A stretch of DNA of 42,677 nt from Candidatus Saccharimonadota bacterium (GCA_030530425.1 JAUMVA010000005.1:1-42677); one strand, 5' to 3'. Positions 9,504 through 26,592 are shown, counted from the first letter of the stretch. The notes: generated by a model from the letters alone, not told the origin. Program-made: numbers and translations.

Positions 9504-10100
9504 CTAATCGTCCAGGCCAACTTCAATACGCTTGAAGCGTTTGATAGTAATATTTTCACCAAGTTTAGCAATCGCGTCTTTGATTAAATCTTCGACTTTT
9601 TTACTATCGTCTTTAATAAAATCTTGTTTCATTAAAGTTTTTTCCGCAAAATACTTATCAATTTGACCAGTTACAATTCGATCAGCAATATCGGCTGGTT
9701 TGTTTTTCAACGCATCAGCAGCTATAAACTCAGCCTTAACTCGTTCCATTTCCTCCGCCGGTACATCTTCAAGCGAAACATAAAGTGGACTCATTGCCGC
9801 AACTTGCAAAGCAATTTCGTGAGCTAAAGCTTTAAATTCTTCAGTTCGCGCTACGAAATCAGTTTCGCAGTTAACTTCTACTAGCACACCGATTCGACCG
9901 TCATGAATATAGCTATCAATTACGCCCGAACGAGTCTCACGATCACCACGTTTTTCAGCCCGAGTTAAACCTTTTTTGCGCATCGCTTCTAGAGCCTTTT
10001 CAAAATCTCCGTCAGCTTCTTTTAATGCATCACGAGCGTCGGTCAAACCAACACCAGTTAAATCTTTTAGTTTTTTTACATCTTCAACTGTAAATGACAT
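9504..10100 (-). CDS. tsf: Elongation factor Ts
   Basis: 198 aa, a short EF-Ts (E. coli 283 aa), like those of mycoplasmas and CPR. The N-terminal UBA-like domain (VKKLKDLTGVGLTDARDALK, about 9-28) and the core motif VEVNCETDFVARTEEF (about 73-88) are intact; the last coiled-coil and subdomain portions are reduced. It is the nucleotide-exchange factor for EF-Tu. It follows rpsB by 36 bases with a GGGGACGAG site, the classical rpsB-tsf operon. Confidence 0.97.
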   Translation of the reverse strand: MSFTVEDVKKLKDLTGVGLTDARDALKEADGDFEKALEAMRKKGLTRAEKRGDRETRSGVIDSYIHDGRIGVLVEVNCETDFVARTEEFKALAHEIALQVAAMSPLYVSLEDVPAEEMERVKAEFIAADALKNKPADIADRIVTGQIDKYFAEKTLMKQDFIKDDSKKVEDLIKDAIAKLGENITIKRFKRIEVGLDD

Positions 10101-10136
10101 CTCGTCCCCTTTTAGATTTTAATCTGTTTAATTTAA

Positions 10137-10829
10137 TTACTTAGCACTTTTTTGGGCAGTTTTTACTGTTTCAGCTAAATAATCTAAAATCAGCTCAACA
10201 CCCTTAATCGCATCATCATTAGCAGGCACAACATAGTCGATGCCTTCTGGATTAACGTTAGTATCAACTAAAGCGATTACTGGAATCTTCATTTTATTAG
10301 CTTCTTTAATAGCGTTTTTGTCAACAATCGCATCAGTTACAAACACAATCGCTGGAGTACCAACTAGATTTTTGATACCACTATACTTAAGGTTTAATGC
10401 ATCTATCTCTTCTTGATAGCGCTGAATTTCAAGTTTTGAATAACGCTTTTCAAATTCACCTGAGGCCATTGATTTTTCATATTGGTGTAATTTACGAATT
10501 TGTGATGAAATAGTAGCCCCGTTAGTTAGCATACCACCAATCCAACGTTCACAAACATAAGGTTGGTCAATTGATTCAGCTACGGTTTTAACTTTGTCTT
10601 TGATTGATTTTTTAGTACCAACAATAAGCACTTTGCCACCTTTGGCAACCTTTTTTGAGACTTCACTCAAGGCTTTTTCTAAATTATCAACCGTCTTTTC
10701 AAGGTCGATAATGTGACTTCCGTGTTGTTTTGAGTGAATGTATGGCGCCATTTTTGGATGCCAACGACTGGTTTTGTGTCCAAAATGAACACCAGCTTCG
10801 AATAAAGCTTTGATGTCAATATCTGACAT
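10137..10829 (-). CDS. rpsB: 30S ribosomal protein S2 (uS2)
   Basis: 230 aa from ATG 10829. This start is preferred over an in-frame TTG ten codons upstream because AAAGGAG lies 4 bases before it and MSDIDIKALFEAGVHFGHKT is the normal uS2 beginning. Family blocks WHPKMAPYI, ERWIGGMLTN and the C-terminal ALVDTNVNPEGIDYVVPANDD are present. uS2 sits on the 30S body near the platform and helps recruit S1. First gene of rpsB-tsf, transcribed from a promoter about 90 bases upstream. Confidence 0.97.
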   Translation of the reverse strand: MSDIDIKALFEAGVHFGHKTSRWHPKMAPYIHSKQHGSHIIDLEKTVDNLEKALSEVSKKVAKGGKVLIVGTKKSIKDKVKTVAESIDQPYVCERWIGGMLTNGATISSQIRKLHQYEKSMASGEFEKRYSKLEIQRYQEEIDALNLKYSGIKNLVGTPAIVFVTDAIVDKNAIKEANKMKIPVIALVDTNVNPEGIDYVVPANDDAIKGVELILDYLAETVKTAQKSAK

Positions 10830-21474: not shown

Positions 21475-21480
21475 GAAGCT

Positions 21481-21489
21481 ATTGTATCA
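21481..21489 (-). promoter_or_regulatory. galU extended -10 promoter, leaderless
   Basis: TGATACAAT on the minus strand, 6 bases before the galU ATG and 4 bases from the hairpin at 21494-21525. Confidence 0.65.
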
Positions 21490-21493
21490 CATT

Positions 21494-21525
21494 TTAAATA
21501 GCTTCGATAACTCGAAGCTATTTAA
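21494..21525 (-). terminator. Hairpin between the DUF11/LPxTG gene and galU
   Basis: TTAAATAGCTTCGA (21494-21507) is perfectly complementary to 21512-21525 with a 4-base loop. It lies upstream of galU and downstream (in minus-strand order) of the surface cluster's neighbour region only if transcription runs rightward; on the minus strand galU is read away from it and the DUF11 gene (22843-21551) is read into it. It is therefore the likely end of the surface-protein transcript. Confidence 0.65.
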
Positions 21526-21550: not shown

Positions 21551-22843
21551 TTATTCTTCATCATCTTTAGCATCTATTTTCATCTCGATGCCGTTAGTAG
21601 TTTGTTTCTTCAACTCTTTTTGTGATTTATACCAGTAGATTATTGAAGTTGTTACTAACATCAATCCAATGATACTAATTGCAATTTCCGCTGGACCGGT
21701 ACTTGGCAATGCATCTGGGCTATTTGGTGGAGTTACATTAGTTGATGGTTCACAGTTGGTCTTCTTTACGACTACATCAGCAACATCTTCTAGATTACCC
21801 TCTGGAGTATAAACAATTACACGGTTACGAAAGATATTGTCACCACAAACCTTTAGGTCGTCATTTTTTGGCACTTTCGCGGCAAAAATCATGAATGCAT
21901 TACTGTTAGTTCCATAGTTACCGATATTCAGACCGCTACCATTAAACAGTGCATCTTGGTTAGTAACTAAACTAGCATTTGGGTTAGCTGCATTTTTAAG
22001 TTTTAAAGTTGATGCAACTGCTGAGATACCATTTGGTAAATAGTCTTTAACAATAACATTATTTTGAGTTGACTGACCAATATTTTGATACATCAATTGA
22101 TACTCAACATTTTCACCAGGGTTAGCTGCAATTTTATTTGACCACTCAGTTGTACCAGCTTTACGTACTTGCTTGGAAATCTTGAAAGCTGCTGTTTTTT
22201 GAGTTTGAACTTTTATTTTAAAAGTTAGAATACCTGAATACTGGAAACAACCTTGAAGACGACCGTCCATCTGATTATAACCAACTTGTGCGCCAGAACT
22301 GGTGACTAAACTATCACTGATCGCGAAACCGTTAGTTGGGTTAGTGTTATTGTGATAACGAGCTGAACCAGCAATATAGGCAATGTTGAATAATTTGGAA
22401 TCACTTTTAAAAATAACATCATCATAAACTTCTTTTGGAGTAGCATTATCAGCTGAGACAAAGGCACCAATTCGAATCTCTTTAGCTGTTGTAGTTGGTA
22501 AACTGATACGCACTCGAGTGTTTTCAGCGACTAAGTTCAAGTTAGCTGCAGCATTATTATGTACATAGACTTGAACTAAATACTCTTGATCGCCACTGAC
22601 ATTTACGTAAGTATCATTCCAACCACCAGCCTGAGTATGACTAGCTGGCTTAGCAAGCATAAAGTTGCGCTCATCACCGTGATTTGGGTTGTTAGTAATC
22701 GAGTTAAAAGTAATCCGATCAGCTGGATTTTCAATCGTATAAGTAGTGCGCTCTGGCGAATAAGCTAAAGCACTAGCCGGTACGATTGAAGCAACAGCGA
22801 TTGCTACAATCAAAGCTTTTAAGTTAATATTTTTGTAGGGCAT
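21551..22843 (-). CDS. Secreted DUF11-domain protein with LPxTG sorting signal
   Basis: 430 aa. A signal peptide (about 1-27, cleavage near ASALAYS) is followed by an Asn/Thr-rich beta domain and a DUF11-like repeat (about 225-320, FKISKQVRKAGT...NVIVKDYLPNGIS). The Pro-rich linker ends in LPSTG at 379-383, then a membrane helix and a charged tail of about 30 residues, longer than in most sortase substrates. It should be exported by Sec, cut by signal peptidase I and anchored by a sortase; no sortase gene is in this window. It is likely a surface adhesin or stalk protein. It follows the 608-aa gene by 27 bases and has AAAGG upstream. Confidence 0.88.
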   Translation of the reverse strand: MPYKNINLKALIVAIAVASIVPASALAYSPERTTYTIENPADRITFNSITNNPNHGDERNFMLAKPASHTQAGGWNDTYVNVSGDQEYLVQVYVHNNAAANLNLVAENTRVRISLPTTTAKEIRIGAFVSADNATPKEVYDDVIFKSDSKLFNIAYIAGSARYHNNTNPTNGFAISDSLVTSSGAQVGYNQMDGRLQGCFQYSGILTFKIKVQTQKTAAFKISKQVRKAGTTEWSNKIAANPGENVEYQLMYQNIGQSTQNNVIVKDYLPNGISAVASTLKLKNAANPNASLVTNQDALFNGSGLNIGNYGTNSNAFMIFAAKVPKNDDLKVCGDNIFRNRVIVYTPEGNLEDVADVVVKKTNCEPSTNVTPPNSPDALPSTGPAEIAISIIGLMLVTTSIIYWYKSQKELKKQTTNGIEMKIDAKDDEE

Positions 22844-22870
22844 GTTTGTTTTTCCTTTCGTTATTATTTA

Positions 22871-24697
22871 TTAGAACCCACCAACGTTTTCATTATTTAC
22901 TATGTTTTGGTTCCCATTCTCAACTGGTTGTGCAGTCTCTGCAGCATCTTCATAAGATTTATTGACTTCATTTTGACCATTCTGATTGTCTATGATTGTC
23001 TGTAACTCTTCGTCAGATAAGCCAGAGTAACTTTGGTTTAGTTCATTTTCCCGTTCGTTTATTAGCTTATCAATCTGATTCATCATGTCTTGATCCAATA
23101 CTACGTCTGGTTCGGCCGGTGCTTTATAAGTAGAAGTTGTTGCGTCTTCAGCTGGACGATACCCACCGTCATTGACAATTTTATCTGTTTTAAGTTGGTC
23201 TGGCAAAGCTTTATTATTCTTAATATCTAATTGTGGGTTTTTTGGAGCAAGGTCCGGAGTCTCTTTTTTAGGCTCTGGTGTATTATTTTCCTCTTCGCCA
23301 CCGTTGTTAGTATTTTCATCATCTTCAGTTAATTCATCGGTTGTATAATCGATTTTATATTCAATTTCATCGTCGTCATCGTCGTCATCATTCTTTTTCT
23401 TTTTCTCACCACCGTCTGGTTCATCTTCTTTAATGTTCACAGTTGGCGTAACAATAGTCTTTACTTTAATAACAGTCTTTTCACGTTCAGTATATTTTTG
23501 GGCACATTTTAATCTGAAATATAATGTTTTAATTTCGCCATTAATGATATATGTAAGTTTTATACCTTGACCAGGGTTTGGAACAGCATCGAAATCGATT
23601 GCAATCTTTGATTTGCCATCAACTTTATCGACCATGCGATAAATAGTCGACCATAATCCTTTATTTAAATCATAAAATTCAGTATTTTGAATATTATCAA
23701 ACACCACTTCATTTATAGCATCATAAACTTGTCCATAATATTCTGGATTATTATTTAAATCTTCAATAAATTGAGCTACTTGATCGCCGTCACTAAAATC
23801 GATTACTTCGCCATCAAGATTCTCAATTTCAATACCGTCAACACTACCATGTAAAAACCCAGCCACGAGCTCAGGTCGAGTATAAATACCTTCACGAAGC
23901 TTTTCCAGTGATTCTTCACTAGTTTCAGCTTCAATATTCCACAAATGATGTTCTTTATCTTCTAATTTATCAATTCCTTCTTTAATTTTTTCTTGATTAA
24001 TATAAATAGGATCGCCTTTTTCATGATTTTCAAAAGAATATTCTTTTTCAACATCAGTTTTATCTGTACTAATTTCAGAAGAATCTTGAATATTATCGAC
24101 ATTATGTTCAGTCGCAACTTCTCGAGTGTTATTTTGATTCTGTTGTTTTATATAACCATAGCCACCAAGTGTTATCATTGCTGCACCAATAAATCCCATT
24201 GCTCGAATGAACCACTTTGAATGACGAATTTTTTCTAGCAATCCACGCTTTTTATTTTCTGGAGTGCTTGGATCATTAATAGTTTCAATAGCATCATCAA
24301 CTTTTTCTTCAGAATCCAGTAAATCATCCAATTCACCATTATCAGGATTAACGGCATCTACATCATTATTCTTATTTTCTGGAGTGCTTGAATCATTAAT
24401 AGTTTCAATAGCATCATCAACTTTTTCTTCAGAATCATCAGCCTCATTAACAACTGAGCTATAGAAATCTTCTGCTTGTTTCATCATATCAACATCCATA
24501 CCGGTTGTTGAGATAAACTTTGATGGATCAGAATCATCAGCCTCATTAACAACTGAGTTATAGAAATCTTCTGCTTGTTTCATCATATCAACATCCATAC
24601 CGGTTGTTGAGATAAACTTTGATGAGAATTCATCATTATCTTGTGAAGAGTTTTTTACCCCCCAACTGTTTGTTTCGCGAGATTCTCTGTTTTCCAT
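22871..24697 (-). CDS. Large single-pass membrane protein with N-terminal tandem duplications
   Basis: 608 aa, not assigned to a family. The N-terminal 150 residues are acidic and contain two duplicated units: SKFISTTGMDVDMMKQAEDF at 26 and 59, and SEEKVDDAIETIND at 89 and 129. One membrane helix (about 161-182) follows. The C-terminal part has a folded stretch (about 215-405) with GKSKIAIDFDAVPNPGQG, then long Asp/Glu/Asn/Lys-rich low-complexity segments including a run of eight Asp. There is no signal peptide, so the N-terminus is probably cytoplasmic and the C-terminal domain outside. Middle gene of a three-gene cluster; AAAAGGAC precedes the start. Confidence 0.82.
   Translation of the reverse strand: MENRESRETNSWGVKNSSQDNDEFSSKFISTTGMDVDMMKQAEDFYNSVVNEADDSDPSKFISTTGMDVDMMKQAEDFYSSVVNEADDSEEKVDDAIETINDSSTPENKNNDVDAVNPDNGELDDLLDSEEKVDDAIETINDPSTPENKKRGLLEKIRHSKWFIRAMGFIGAAMITLGGYGYIKQQNQNNTREVATEHNVDNIQDSSEISTDKTDVEKEYSFENHEKGDPIYINQEKIKEGIDKLEDKEHHLWNIEAETSEESLEKLREGIYTRPELVAGFLHGSVDGIEIENLDGEVIDFSDGDQVAQFIEDLNNNPEYYGQVYDAINEVVFDNIQNTEFYDLNKGLWSTIYRMVDKVDGKSKIAIDFDAVPNPGQGIKLTYIINGEIKTLYFRLKCAQKYTEREKTVIKVKTIVTPTVNIKEDEPDGGEKKKKNDDDDDDDEIEYKIDYTTDELTEDDENTNNGGEEENNTPEPKKETPDLAPKNPQLDIKNNKALPDQLKTDKIVNDGGYRPAEDATTSTYKAPAEPDVVLDQDMMNQIDKLINERENELNQSYSGLSDEELQTIIDNQNGQNEVNKSYEDAAETAQPVENGNQNIVNNENVGGF
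24252..24436. repeat. 65-bp direct repeat, two copies, period 120
   Basis: 24252-24316 and 24372-24436 differ at one base. The period is 40 codons, so the reading frame of the 608-aa protein is kept. Confidence 0.85.
24432..24624. repeat. 94-bp direct repeat, two copies, period 99
   Basis: 24432-24525 and 24531-24624 differ at one base near 24469/24568. The period is 33 codons, in frame in the 608-aa gene. It adjoins and slightly overlaps the 65-bp repeat. Confidence 0.9.
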
Positions 24698-24750
24698 TTT
24701 TGTCCTTTTTGTGTTTATTTTTATTATTTAACTTATTTATGATCTTATCA

Positions 24751-24918
24751 CTACGAATCTAGATTTTCAATATTTTGTCTTATCTTTAATAAATTAACAG
24801 CTGTTGTACCTAATATTTTCTTATCTTCTTCTCGAAGTTTCGGTTGCGATTCCATACCACTAAGTTCCTCAATTGTTGAAACTGGTGGTCTGAATAAATC
24901 AATTCTTTCGCTGTTCAT
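24751..24918 (-). CDS. Small 55-aa protein at the head of the surface cluster
   Basis: ATG at 24918, stop TAG at 24753-24751, 55 aa. The product begins MNSERIDLFRPPVSTIEEL, is hydrophilic, has no membrane segment and ends with a helical stretch ILGTTAVNLLKIRQNIENL. AAGGC lies 6 bases before the start. It follows a good promoter at 24968-24996 and is read into the 608-aa gene after a 53-base gap. It is very short, but the promoter, ribosome-binding site and uninterrupted frame support a real gene. Function unknown. Confidence 0.65.
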   Translation of the reverse strand: MNSERIDLFRPPVSTIEELSGMESQPKLREEDKKILGTTAVNLLKIRQNIENLDS

Positions 24919-24967: not shown

Positions 24968-24996
24968 AGTGTATCATAAAACTTATGTTTTGTCAA
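24968..24996 (-). promoter_or_regulatory. Promoter of the surface cluster
   Basis: A perfect TTGACA (24996-24991), 17-base spacer and TACACT (24973-24968) on the minus strand. The -35 overlaps the last codon of the thioredoxin-like gene. The leader is about 45 bases. Confidence 0.7.
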
Positions 24997-25259
24997 TAGC
25001 TTTGATCGTAATAGGAAATTTGACTAATTTGTGGCAATGGACGTCCTGGCCACACTTGGATCATACTACCAAAGTCATTAACGGCAATAATTGTCGGATA
25101 TTCGACAATATCATTTGCCTTGCAAAAGCTCTCACCATGTGGTGACTCAGGGTCAAGAGTTTCCAGCTCTCGTCCAGTAGCCTTAAAATAATCTCGTAAG
25201 TAATCATTGACCTCGCGAGCATGATCAGAATGCTCTTTATAAACTACAACTACTCGCAT
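24993..25259 (-). CDS. Thioredoxin-fold protein without cysteine pair, after ftsZ
   Basis: 88 aa from ATG 25259, one base after the ftsZ stop. The pattern MRVVVVYKEHSDHAREVNDYL...EYPTIIAVNDFGSMIQVWPG has the beta-alpha-beta start and the cis-Pro (YPTI) of a thioredoxin or glutaredoxin fold. The usual CxxC position reads EHSDHA, and the only Cys (in FCKAND) is elsewhere. A longer frame extends upstream inside ftsZ but is rejected, because the short start has AGGA five bases before it. A redox role is unlikely; a binding role is possible. Its stop is TGA, rare here. Confidence 0.75.
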   Translation of the reverse strand: MRVVVVYKEHSDHAREVNDYLRDYFKATGRELETLDPESPHGESFCKANDIVEYPTIIAVNDFGSMIQVWPGRPLPQISQISYYDQSY

Positions 25260-25260
25260 T

Positions 25261-26592
25261 TTATCCTCGACGACGGCGTAAGAAATCTGGAGTATCAAGC
25301 TCATCTTCAGACAGATCCCAAACATTAACGCCTTCGTCATCGTCTGATTGAGGCGTTGAGTCAATATCAATTTCATCAACTACATCATCAAAATCATCTA
25401 CTGGCATTTTAGTTACTTTTTCTCGAGAAAAATGCGAAAATGAATTATTTGTTGATTCCGAATGTTTTTCATCATCAGACTCTACTTCATCATTTTTTTT
25501 AGCACTTTGATTAGTTTCGATATTTTGCTCCCGATCATCAGAATCAATCTTATTATAGTCATTAAGCTCAGCGGAATTACGTTTATCCTTTGAATAATCA
25601 AATCTATCGACATCCTTCTCATCTTGATTGTGATACATTGAATCAAATCCAGTTGCCACGACAGTAACTACAATTTCATCATCCAATTCCGGCTTTAACG
25701 TTGCACCAAAGATAATATTAGCGTCCGGCGAAACTGATGCAGTAATTAGTTCAGCAGCATCTTGAATCTCGCTCATGCTCATATCATAGCCACCAGCGAT
25801 GTTAAACAGTACACCACGCGCACCATCAATTGACACTTCAATAAGTGGCGATTCTATCGCCTGTTTTGCAGCTTCAACTGCACGGTTTTCACCACTAGCG
25901 CAGCCAATACCCATCAATGCCGAACCAGCATTGCTCATGATCGCTTTAACGTCAGCAAAATCAAGATTAATCAAACCATGTTCAGTGATTAATTCAGAAA
26001 TACCCTGAACACCTTGACGCAAGATATCGTCAGCAATCTTAAAAGATTCTAACATTGGAGTATTGCGATCAATAATTTGAAGTAGGCGTTCGTTTGGAAT
26101 GGTAATCAATGCATCAACCTGACGACGCAATTGATCAATTGCCCAATCAGCATTTTGTTTACGTCTTGGACCTTCAAATGGAAAAGGTCTAGTGACTACA
26201 CCCACCGTTAGAATGCCTAGATCACGTGCTATTTCAGCCACTATATGGCCAGCGCCTGATCCAGTTCCTCCACCAGCACCTAGAGTGATAAACACCATGT
26301 CGGCGCCTTCAAGCGCTGAGCGAATATCTTCTCGAGATTCCTCAGCGGCTCGTTCACCCTTTGACGGATCTGCACCAGCCCCTAAGCCGTGAGTAGCTTC
26401 ACGACCAAGATAGACTTTGATATCAGCTAGAGATTTGTGTAAAGCTTGCGCGTCTGTGTTCATTGCCACAAAATCAACACCCTTTAATTGCGCTTCTTTC
26501 ATGCGATTAACCGCCGAGCCGCCCGCTCCACCAATGCCAACTACTTTAATATTAGCAAATGTTTCAATTTCTGTTGGTTTAATTTCTGGCAT
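25261..26592 (-). CDS. ftsZ: Cell division protein FtsZ
   Basis: 443 aa. The GTPase domain has VGIGGAGGSAVNRM (18-31) and the tubulin signature GAGGGTGSG (105-113), then the T7 loop region NLDFADVKAIM. A long acidic linker (about 320-430) precedes the C-terminal peptide TPDFLRRRRG, which matches the D-I-P-x-F-L-R-R type that binds FtsA. It forms the division ring. It follows ftsA by 9 bases with a GGGGACGGA site. Confidence 0.97.
   Translation of the reverse strand: MPEIKPTEIETFANIKVVGIGGAGGSAVNRMKEAQLKGVDFVAMNTDAQALHKSLADIKVYLGREATHGLGAGADPSKGERAAEESREDIRSALEGADMVFITLGAGGGTGSGAGHIVAEIARDLGILTVGVVTRPFPFEGPRRKQNADWAIDQLRRQVDALITIPNERLLQIIDRNTPMLESFKIADDILRQGVQGISELITEHGLINLDFADVKAIMSNAGSALMGIGCASGENRAVEAAKQAIESPLIEVSIDGARGVLFNIAGGYDMSMSEIQDAAELITASVSPDANIIFGATLKPELDDEIVVTVVATGFDSMYHNQDEKDVDRFDYSKDKRNSAELNDYNKIDSDDREQNIETNQSAKKNDEVESDDEKHSESTNNSFSHFSREKVTKMPVDDFDDVVDEIDIDSTPQSDDDEGVNVWDLSEDELDTPDFLRRRRG

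Follow-up and report, generated by a model that had tools for sequence, protein, structure and literature searches.

A membrane protein gene and an LPxTG surface protein gene form a conserved pair near ftsZ in the genome of a putative Saccharibacteria-type epibiont

Are the three genes that lie close to ftsZ in this genome a recent acquisition or part of an older surface system, and what might their products do? We analyzed a window of 42,677 nucleotides, corresponding to contig C1 of a genome of 661,276 bases (33% G+C, 15 contigs) whose gene content and P3 homologs (see below) suggest a Saccharibacteria-type epibiont. An earlier note on this DNA had described a surface cluster of three apparently lineage-specific genes under one promoter, placed between ftsZ and galU. 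We confirmed the three minus-strand ORFs (P1, P2, and P3, with 55, 608, and 430 amino acids, respectively) at that place (Table 1). The gene order on the minus strand is ftsZ, an 88-amino-acid glutaredoxin-like gene, P1, P2, P3, galU, rplU, parA, and parB. The glutaredoxin-like gene, which was absent from the earlier description, stands between ftsZ and P1; it was present in all 105 of the good genomes of the family.

Table 1. Features of the cluster and its flanks, in window coordinates
Feature	Positions	Strand	Basis
Glutaredoxin-like gene, 88 aa, conserved core neighbor between ftsZ and P1	24993..25259	-	Family survey
Sigma-70-type promoter-like site, TTGACA-17-TACACT, TG before the -10	24968..24996	-	Consensus match
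P1, 55-aa small protein, function unknown	24751..24918	-	ORF, codon usage; no family match
P2, bitopic membrane protein of 608 aa, divergent P2-family member	22871..24697	-	ORF, hydropathy, profile
99-bp tandem duplication, 33-aa module SKFISTTGMDVDMMKQAEDFY... twice in the P2 cytoplasmic tail	24429..24624	-	Repeat analysis
68-nt direct repeat, two copies at 120-nt spacing, EEKVDDAIETIND module	24249..24436	-	Repeat analysis
P2 membrane helix, residues about 163-181, basic residues before it	24155..24211	-	Hydropathy
Folded part of the P2 ectodomain, residues about 252-407, helices then six strands	23477..23944	-	AlphaFold2, pLDDT 53-94 by block
Codon of P2 Cys398, the sole cysteine of P2	23504..23506	-	Sequence, family alignment
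P3, 430-aa LPxTG/DUF11 surface protein, family-wide	21551..22843	-	ORF, profile matches, homolog survey
P3 N-terminal beta domain, conserved, residues about 27-215, invariant Cys199	22199..22765	-	Alignment, model
P3 DUF11 (CLIPPER) domain, residues about 220-365, Lys224/Asp267/Asn340, Cys333/Cys364	21749..22186	-	Profile, alignment
P3 LPSTG sortase motif, residues 379-383	21695..21709	-	Sequence
Terminator-like 14-bp hairpin with only a short T run, in the P3-galU gap	21494..21525	-	z -4.4

The three genes are plausibly carried on a single transcript. Intergenic gaps of 53 nt (P1-P2) and 27 nt (P2-P3), the absence of terminator-like sites on the cluster strand within the cluster, and the strong hairpin 3' of P3 all fit such a transcript, and P2 and P3 are probably cotranscribed. 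The site upstream of P1 shares bases with the glutaredoxin-like gene's stop codon and was the best of 33 promoter-like sites between 20.5 and 27 kb. Because 24 ± 5 such sites were expected by chance, we treat it as a consensus match with a putative promoter role and not as a proven promoter. A second, weaker promoter-like site at 24770-24742 could drive the expression of P2 and P3 without P1. A search of the cluster against Rfam yielded no match. Beyond the cluster, an extended -10 like sequence (TGATACAAT) at 21475-21495 lies six nucleotides 5' of the galU ATG and, if used, would give a leaderless transcript.

P3 is widespread among relatives. Homologs were detected in 122 of 151 family genomes; of the 287 genomes sampled across the phylum, 50 matched P3, many of them through the DUF11 part only. 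A scan of the genome_contigs set for P3 returned two relatives only. P2 behaved differently in direct searches, with a BLAST-level search of 60 relatives and 84,980 species genomes finding nothing outside its own genome, where the only match was a 33-amino-acid module in another protein. We defined the P2 family as the upstream partner of P3. The ORFs directly 5' of P3 homologs share the plan of P2, i.e., a cytoplasmic tail of variable length, basic residues, one membrane helix, and an ectodomain with a cysteine about 155 to 390 residues past the helix, followed by an acidic or Pro-rich tail; P2 itself has the single helix, an ectodomain ending in the conserved cysteine, and then an acidic/Pro-rich tail. 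A P2-type gene immediately precedes most P3 homologs, and the gap between the two was mostly 0 to 80 nt.

Profiles recovered the relationship. Using a first profile built from 21 upstream-ORF ectodomains, with P2 excluded, P2 scored 31 to 33 with its cysteine aligned; the maximum was 14.9 among 30 shuffles and 17.9 among 118 unrelated proteins. With a leave-one-out profile, the score of P2 was 39.4 (E value, 6e-5), and 34 of 43 upstream ORFs scored at least 26; the other 9 were not clearly above the level of the controls, which were scored with the first profile and not with the individual leave-one-out profiles. Partners with a short N terminus (class B), including a gene on contig C9 of the same genome, belong to the P2 family, and several of them were recognized even though they were not included in the profile. 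Other P2 ectodomains showed only 11 to 17% identity to this one. Judged by these scores, P2 is a fast-evolving family member that is invisible to BLAST and recoverable by profile. The P2 family thereby illustrates how a conserved gene can pass as an orphan until synteny and profiles recover it across genera.

Gene order agrees with this picture. In relatives, the adjacency of P2 and P3 was kept and P1 was not. We found the P2-P3 pair in the ftsZ-to-rplU interval at 20 loci from six other genera; some of these loci were picked for a nearby P3, and the counts accordingly speak for a shared position but not for its frequency. At 15 loci (genera g2, g11, g12, and g65), the pair is found in the stretch from ileS to rplU, with ftsZ and the glutaredoxin-like gene upstream of it; at the remaining 5 (g36 and g70), it follows just after galU. 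The genome also has a second P2-P3 pair of its own on C9 (L105:8040-9344 and 9577-10806), whose P2-like gene was recognized by a leave-one-out profile. A profile search for P2-like genes in this genome returned exactly the C1 and C9 genes, both of which are rows of that profile. On the basis of gene order and profile matches, P2-P3 is a conserved two-gene module that we take to be ancestral in the family, and the proposed lineage-specific insertion does not hold for these two genes. No description of the pair was found in the literature searched, which takes in few subscription journals.

Two further observations concern this region. In relatives, ileS and an NrdR-like gene separate ftsZ from the cluster. 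Neither is at that position here (window 24993-26592); ileS is on contig C8 (L158), and tblastn found no match to the NrdR-like gene in this genome. In one relative (genome G063; L028/L191), the P2 ectodomain runs in frame into P3. Nearby frameshifts on the contig make a true fusion doubtful, and we set it aside; a 27-column profile match that seemed to indicate homology between P2 and P3 arose solely from that L028 sequence and was likewise rejected.

P1 is probably a real coding gene because its codon usage was better than that of 99.4% of the 159 size-matched spurious ORFs. Searches of Pfam, NCBIfam, and PHROGs gave chance-level matches only. Small ORFs at the equivalent position in relatives scored 7.8 against P1, and shuffles reached 13.2; their likeness is positional only. 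The C9 pair, moreover, has no P1. The idea that all three genes are gained and lost together thus fails for P1, which in these comparisons is a lineage-restricted small gene without detectable relatives in front of P2-P3. It might be a small accessory protein encoded in the leader region and would not be a constant member of the module; the regulator or chaperone role suggested for it in the earlier note is hypothetical.

The earlier description of P2 as an acidic, repeat-rich, single-pass protein was confirmed, with one predicted helix and the 99-bp and 68-nt repeats. The positive-inside rule points to an N-in/C-out orientation, which would place the 33-amino-acid module in the cytoplasm and the C-terminal part outside. 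Structure prediction gave a model of moderate confidence (mean pLDDT, 67.7) with a folded core. A fold search of this model against the PDB and viral models found nothing at an E value of <0.001, and the P2 profile matched PDB sequences at chance level (E value, 0.27 and worse), as did P2 against Pfam, NCBIfam, and PHROGs. Cys398 is the only invariant column in the family alignment (26 sequences).

P3 was predicted with confidence by AlphaFold2 (mean pLDDT, 87) and looks like a small adhesin, with a signal peptide, a conserved N-terminal domain, DUF11, and LPSTG. As the earlier note had stated, the LPxTG-type motif is present and the DUF11 assignment exceeds curated cutoffs (PF01345, 28.3 bits with a cutoff of 24.6; TIGR01451, 37.4 with a cutoff of 24). 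Past LPSTG, the C terminus comprises a hydrophobic helix (residues 384-416 in the model) and a basic tail, YKSQKELKKQ. DUF11 has been renamed CLIPPER because one member was shown to contain a Lys-Asn isopeptide bond within a single molecule, an Asp completing the triad (PMC12617251). Among 49 sequences, Lys224, Asp267, and Asn340 of P3 were conserved at 98, 100, and 96%, respectively, and occur in the same order as Lys715/Asp748/Asn806 of 9IFR; we assign them as a putative isopeptide triad by order and alignment only. The three cysteines (Cys199, Cys333, and Cys364) were conserved at 98 to 100% in the same 49 sequences. In the model, Cys333 and Cys364 face each other across a predicted hairpin (334-346/349-361), and they would therefore be expected to pair within P3, apparently leaving one of the three conserved cysteines unpaired.

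Attachment of P3 to the wall would fall to a sortase. Three sortase genes (PF04203) exceeded the cutoff, on C6, C10, and C12, with none in the cluster; a catalytic-type TC motif was found in two of them. An all-ORF scan of the genome for sorting signals yielded the LPxTG-like signal of P3, LAKTG in its paralog, and one APNTG candidate on C14, the other candidates being poor or false. The pair includes one of the very few recognizable sortase substrates of the genome, which has two or three C-terminal sorting signals. These features support the earlier view of a surface or envelope cluster with a sortase-type surface protein. As a separate matter, two of the sortase genes (L161:11278-11961 and L156:2403-3107) each adjoin a secY-like gene, and the assembly seems to hold two copies of the secY/infA/rpsM neighborhood, on C12 and C6, perhaps reflecting a close strain or contamination.

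Comparison with known systems places P3 near LPxTG fibrillar adhesins with DUF11/CLIPPER stalks (PF01345; PMC12617251), with which it shares the signal peptide, a DUF11 domain with Lys/Asp/Asn, LPSTG, and a hydrophobic/basic C terminus; its profile matched 9IFR, the crystal structure for CLIPPER, as well as 9UVR, a surface protein. Unlike those adhesins, P3 has a single stalk domain, a family-specific N-terminal domain with Cys199, and a dedicated membrane protein partner encoded upstream. The best PDB fold matches of P3 included the collagen adhesins CNA, Cnm, ACE, and RspB and the pilins PilA/PilB of Streptococcus sanguinis. The P3 model is, like these, of a multidomain Ig-like beta type, and the TM-scores (0.16 to 0.28, normalized to P3) denote likeness of general architecture only. 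We rejected P3 as a sortase-assembled pilin, given that it lacks a YPK motif and that the cluster has no sortase gene. In Saccharibacteria, type IV pili are host contact structures, and close-range adhesins acting after the pili have been postulated (PMC12206443); P2 and P3 matched no pilin family in the libraries searched.

On balance, we favor, with moderate confidence, a model in which P2-P3 is a probably cotranscribed ancestral surface module whose membrane protein holds or presents its wall-anchored partner. P2 would remain membrane bound and expose its C-terminal part, a sortase would attach P3 to the wall, and the two would meet at the surface; P3, or the fast-evolving P2 ectodomain, would contact the host bacterium. 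The pairing of the genes is well supported by gene order and profiles; the link between the proteins and their role in host attachment are inferred, the latter being what one would first suppose of an epibiont's surface proteins, and plausible. A disulfide perhaps joins the partners: if Cys333 and Cys364 pair within P3, Cys199 and Cys398 of P2 are left over and could connect the two proteins. A membrane-anchored thioredoxin-like CPHC protein (C14:24901-25482; L181:4901-5482) is a candidate disulfide-forming enzyme, and enrichment of MdbA-like oxidoreductases and sortases in the phylum has been reported (PMC6744442). That paper also cites the MdbA/VKOR sortase-pilus system of Actinomyces, where an enzyme of thioredoxin fold, anchored in the membrane, folds sortase substrates with disulfides. 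Sortases and the CPHC protein are present in this genome, but the DsbA-type Thioredoxin_4 and VKOR models found no match in it, which counts against a disulfide, and the bond proposed here lies between proteins. Several cysteines occur in some of the class B partners, and this weakens a simple one-plus-one arithmetic. The full version, a hitherto undescribed two-component surface adhesin of Saccharibacteria in which a fast-evolving P2 of new fold is disulfide linked through its only invariant cysteine to wall-anchored P3, tying membrane and wall at the site of host contact, seems rather unlikely to us as a whole.

Other readings separate the two proteins. P3 might be a stand-alone sortase-anchored adhesin, every feature of which it has, with P2 an independent membrane protein that merely shares its transcript, for example, an envelope or cell cycle protein with a cytoplasmic scaffold tail. 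Each is complete as a single gene, yet P2-type and P3 genes remain side by side in different genera, at several positions, and in a second pair within this genome, a pattern that is difficult to account for unless their functions are connected, and we consider independence unlikely. P2 could instead help to assemble or export P3, as a membrane chaperone or sortase adaptor, and remain outside the mature structure. Its membrane anchor and its position close to and upstream of P3 would suit this role, as would the location of the sortase genes elsewhere in the genome; the long acidic/Pro-rich tails and fast-changing ectodomains are less reminiscent of a conserved chaperone than of a part exposed at the surface, making this reading quite improbable. 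An insertion of three new genes, toward which the lack of BLAST-level relatives of P1 and P2 would point, is contradicted for P2 and P3 by the family-wide occurrence of P3, the profile-recovered P2, and the gene order in relatives, and we give it hardly any credence.

P2 and P3 are good candidates for the display of adhesive proteins toward host bacteria. Adhesins that hold Saccharibacteria to the host after pilus contact have been postulated, and few have been assigned (PMC12206443 and PMC11665869). Transformable Saccharibacteria strains exist (PMC10633639), and a family-wide pair, duplicated here, offers a short list of genes for deletion or tagging in them.

One repeat of P2 also occurs outside the cluster. 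Two copies of the 33-amino-acid module, SKF(I/V)STTGMD..MMKQAEDFY, lie in the P2 tail, and another stands at the N terminus of an unrelated 1485-amino-acid protein (L004:4630-9087; C15:137629-142083), with module copies 83% identical in DNA; the module is missing from a partial ortholog (L128). Proteins of this genome may share it as a docking tag. A DUF5663-like small protein, scoring slightly below the Pfam cutoff, precedes the 1485-amino-acid protein and also precedes P2-like genes of genus g2 (L004:4335-4628, L088:7515-7841, and L104:5608-5949). A literature search on DUF5663 found no paper; these positions hint that the small protein serves the cytoplasmic tails of such proteins.
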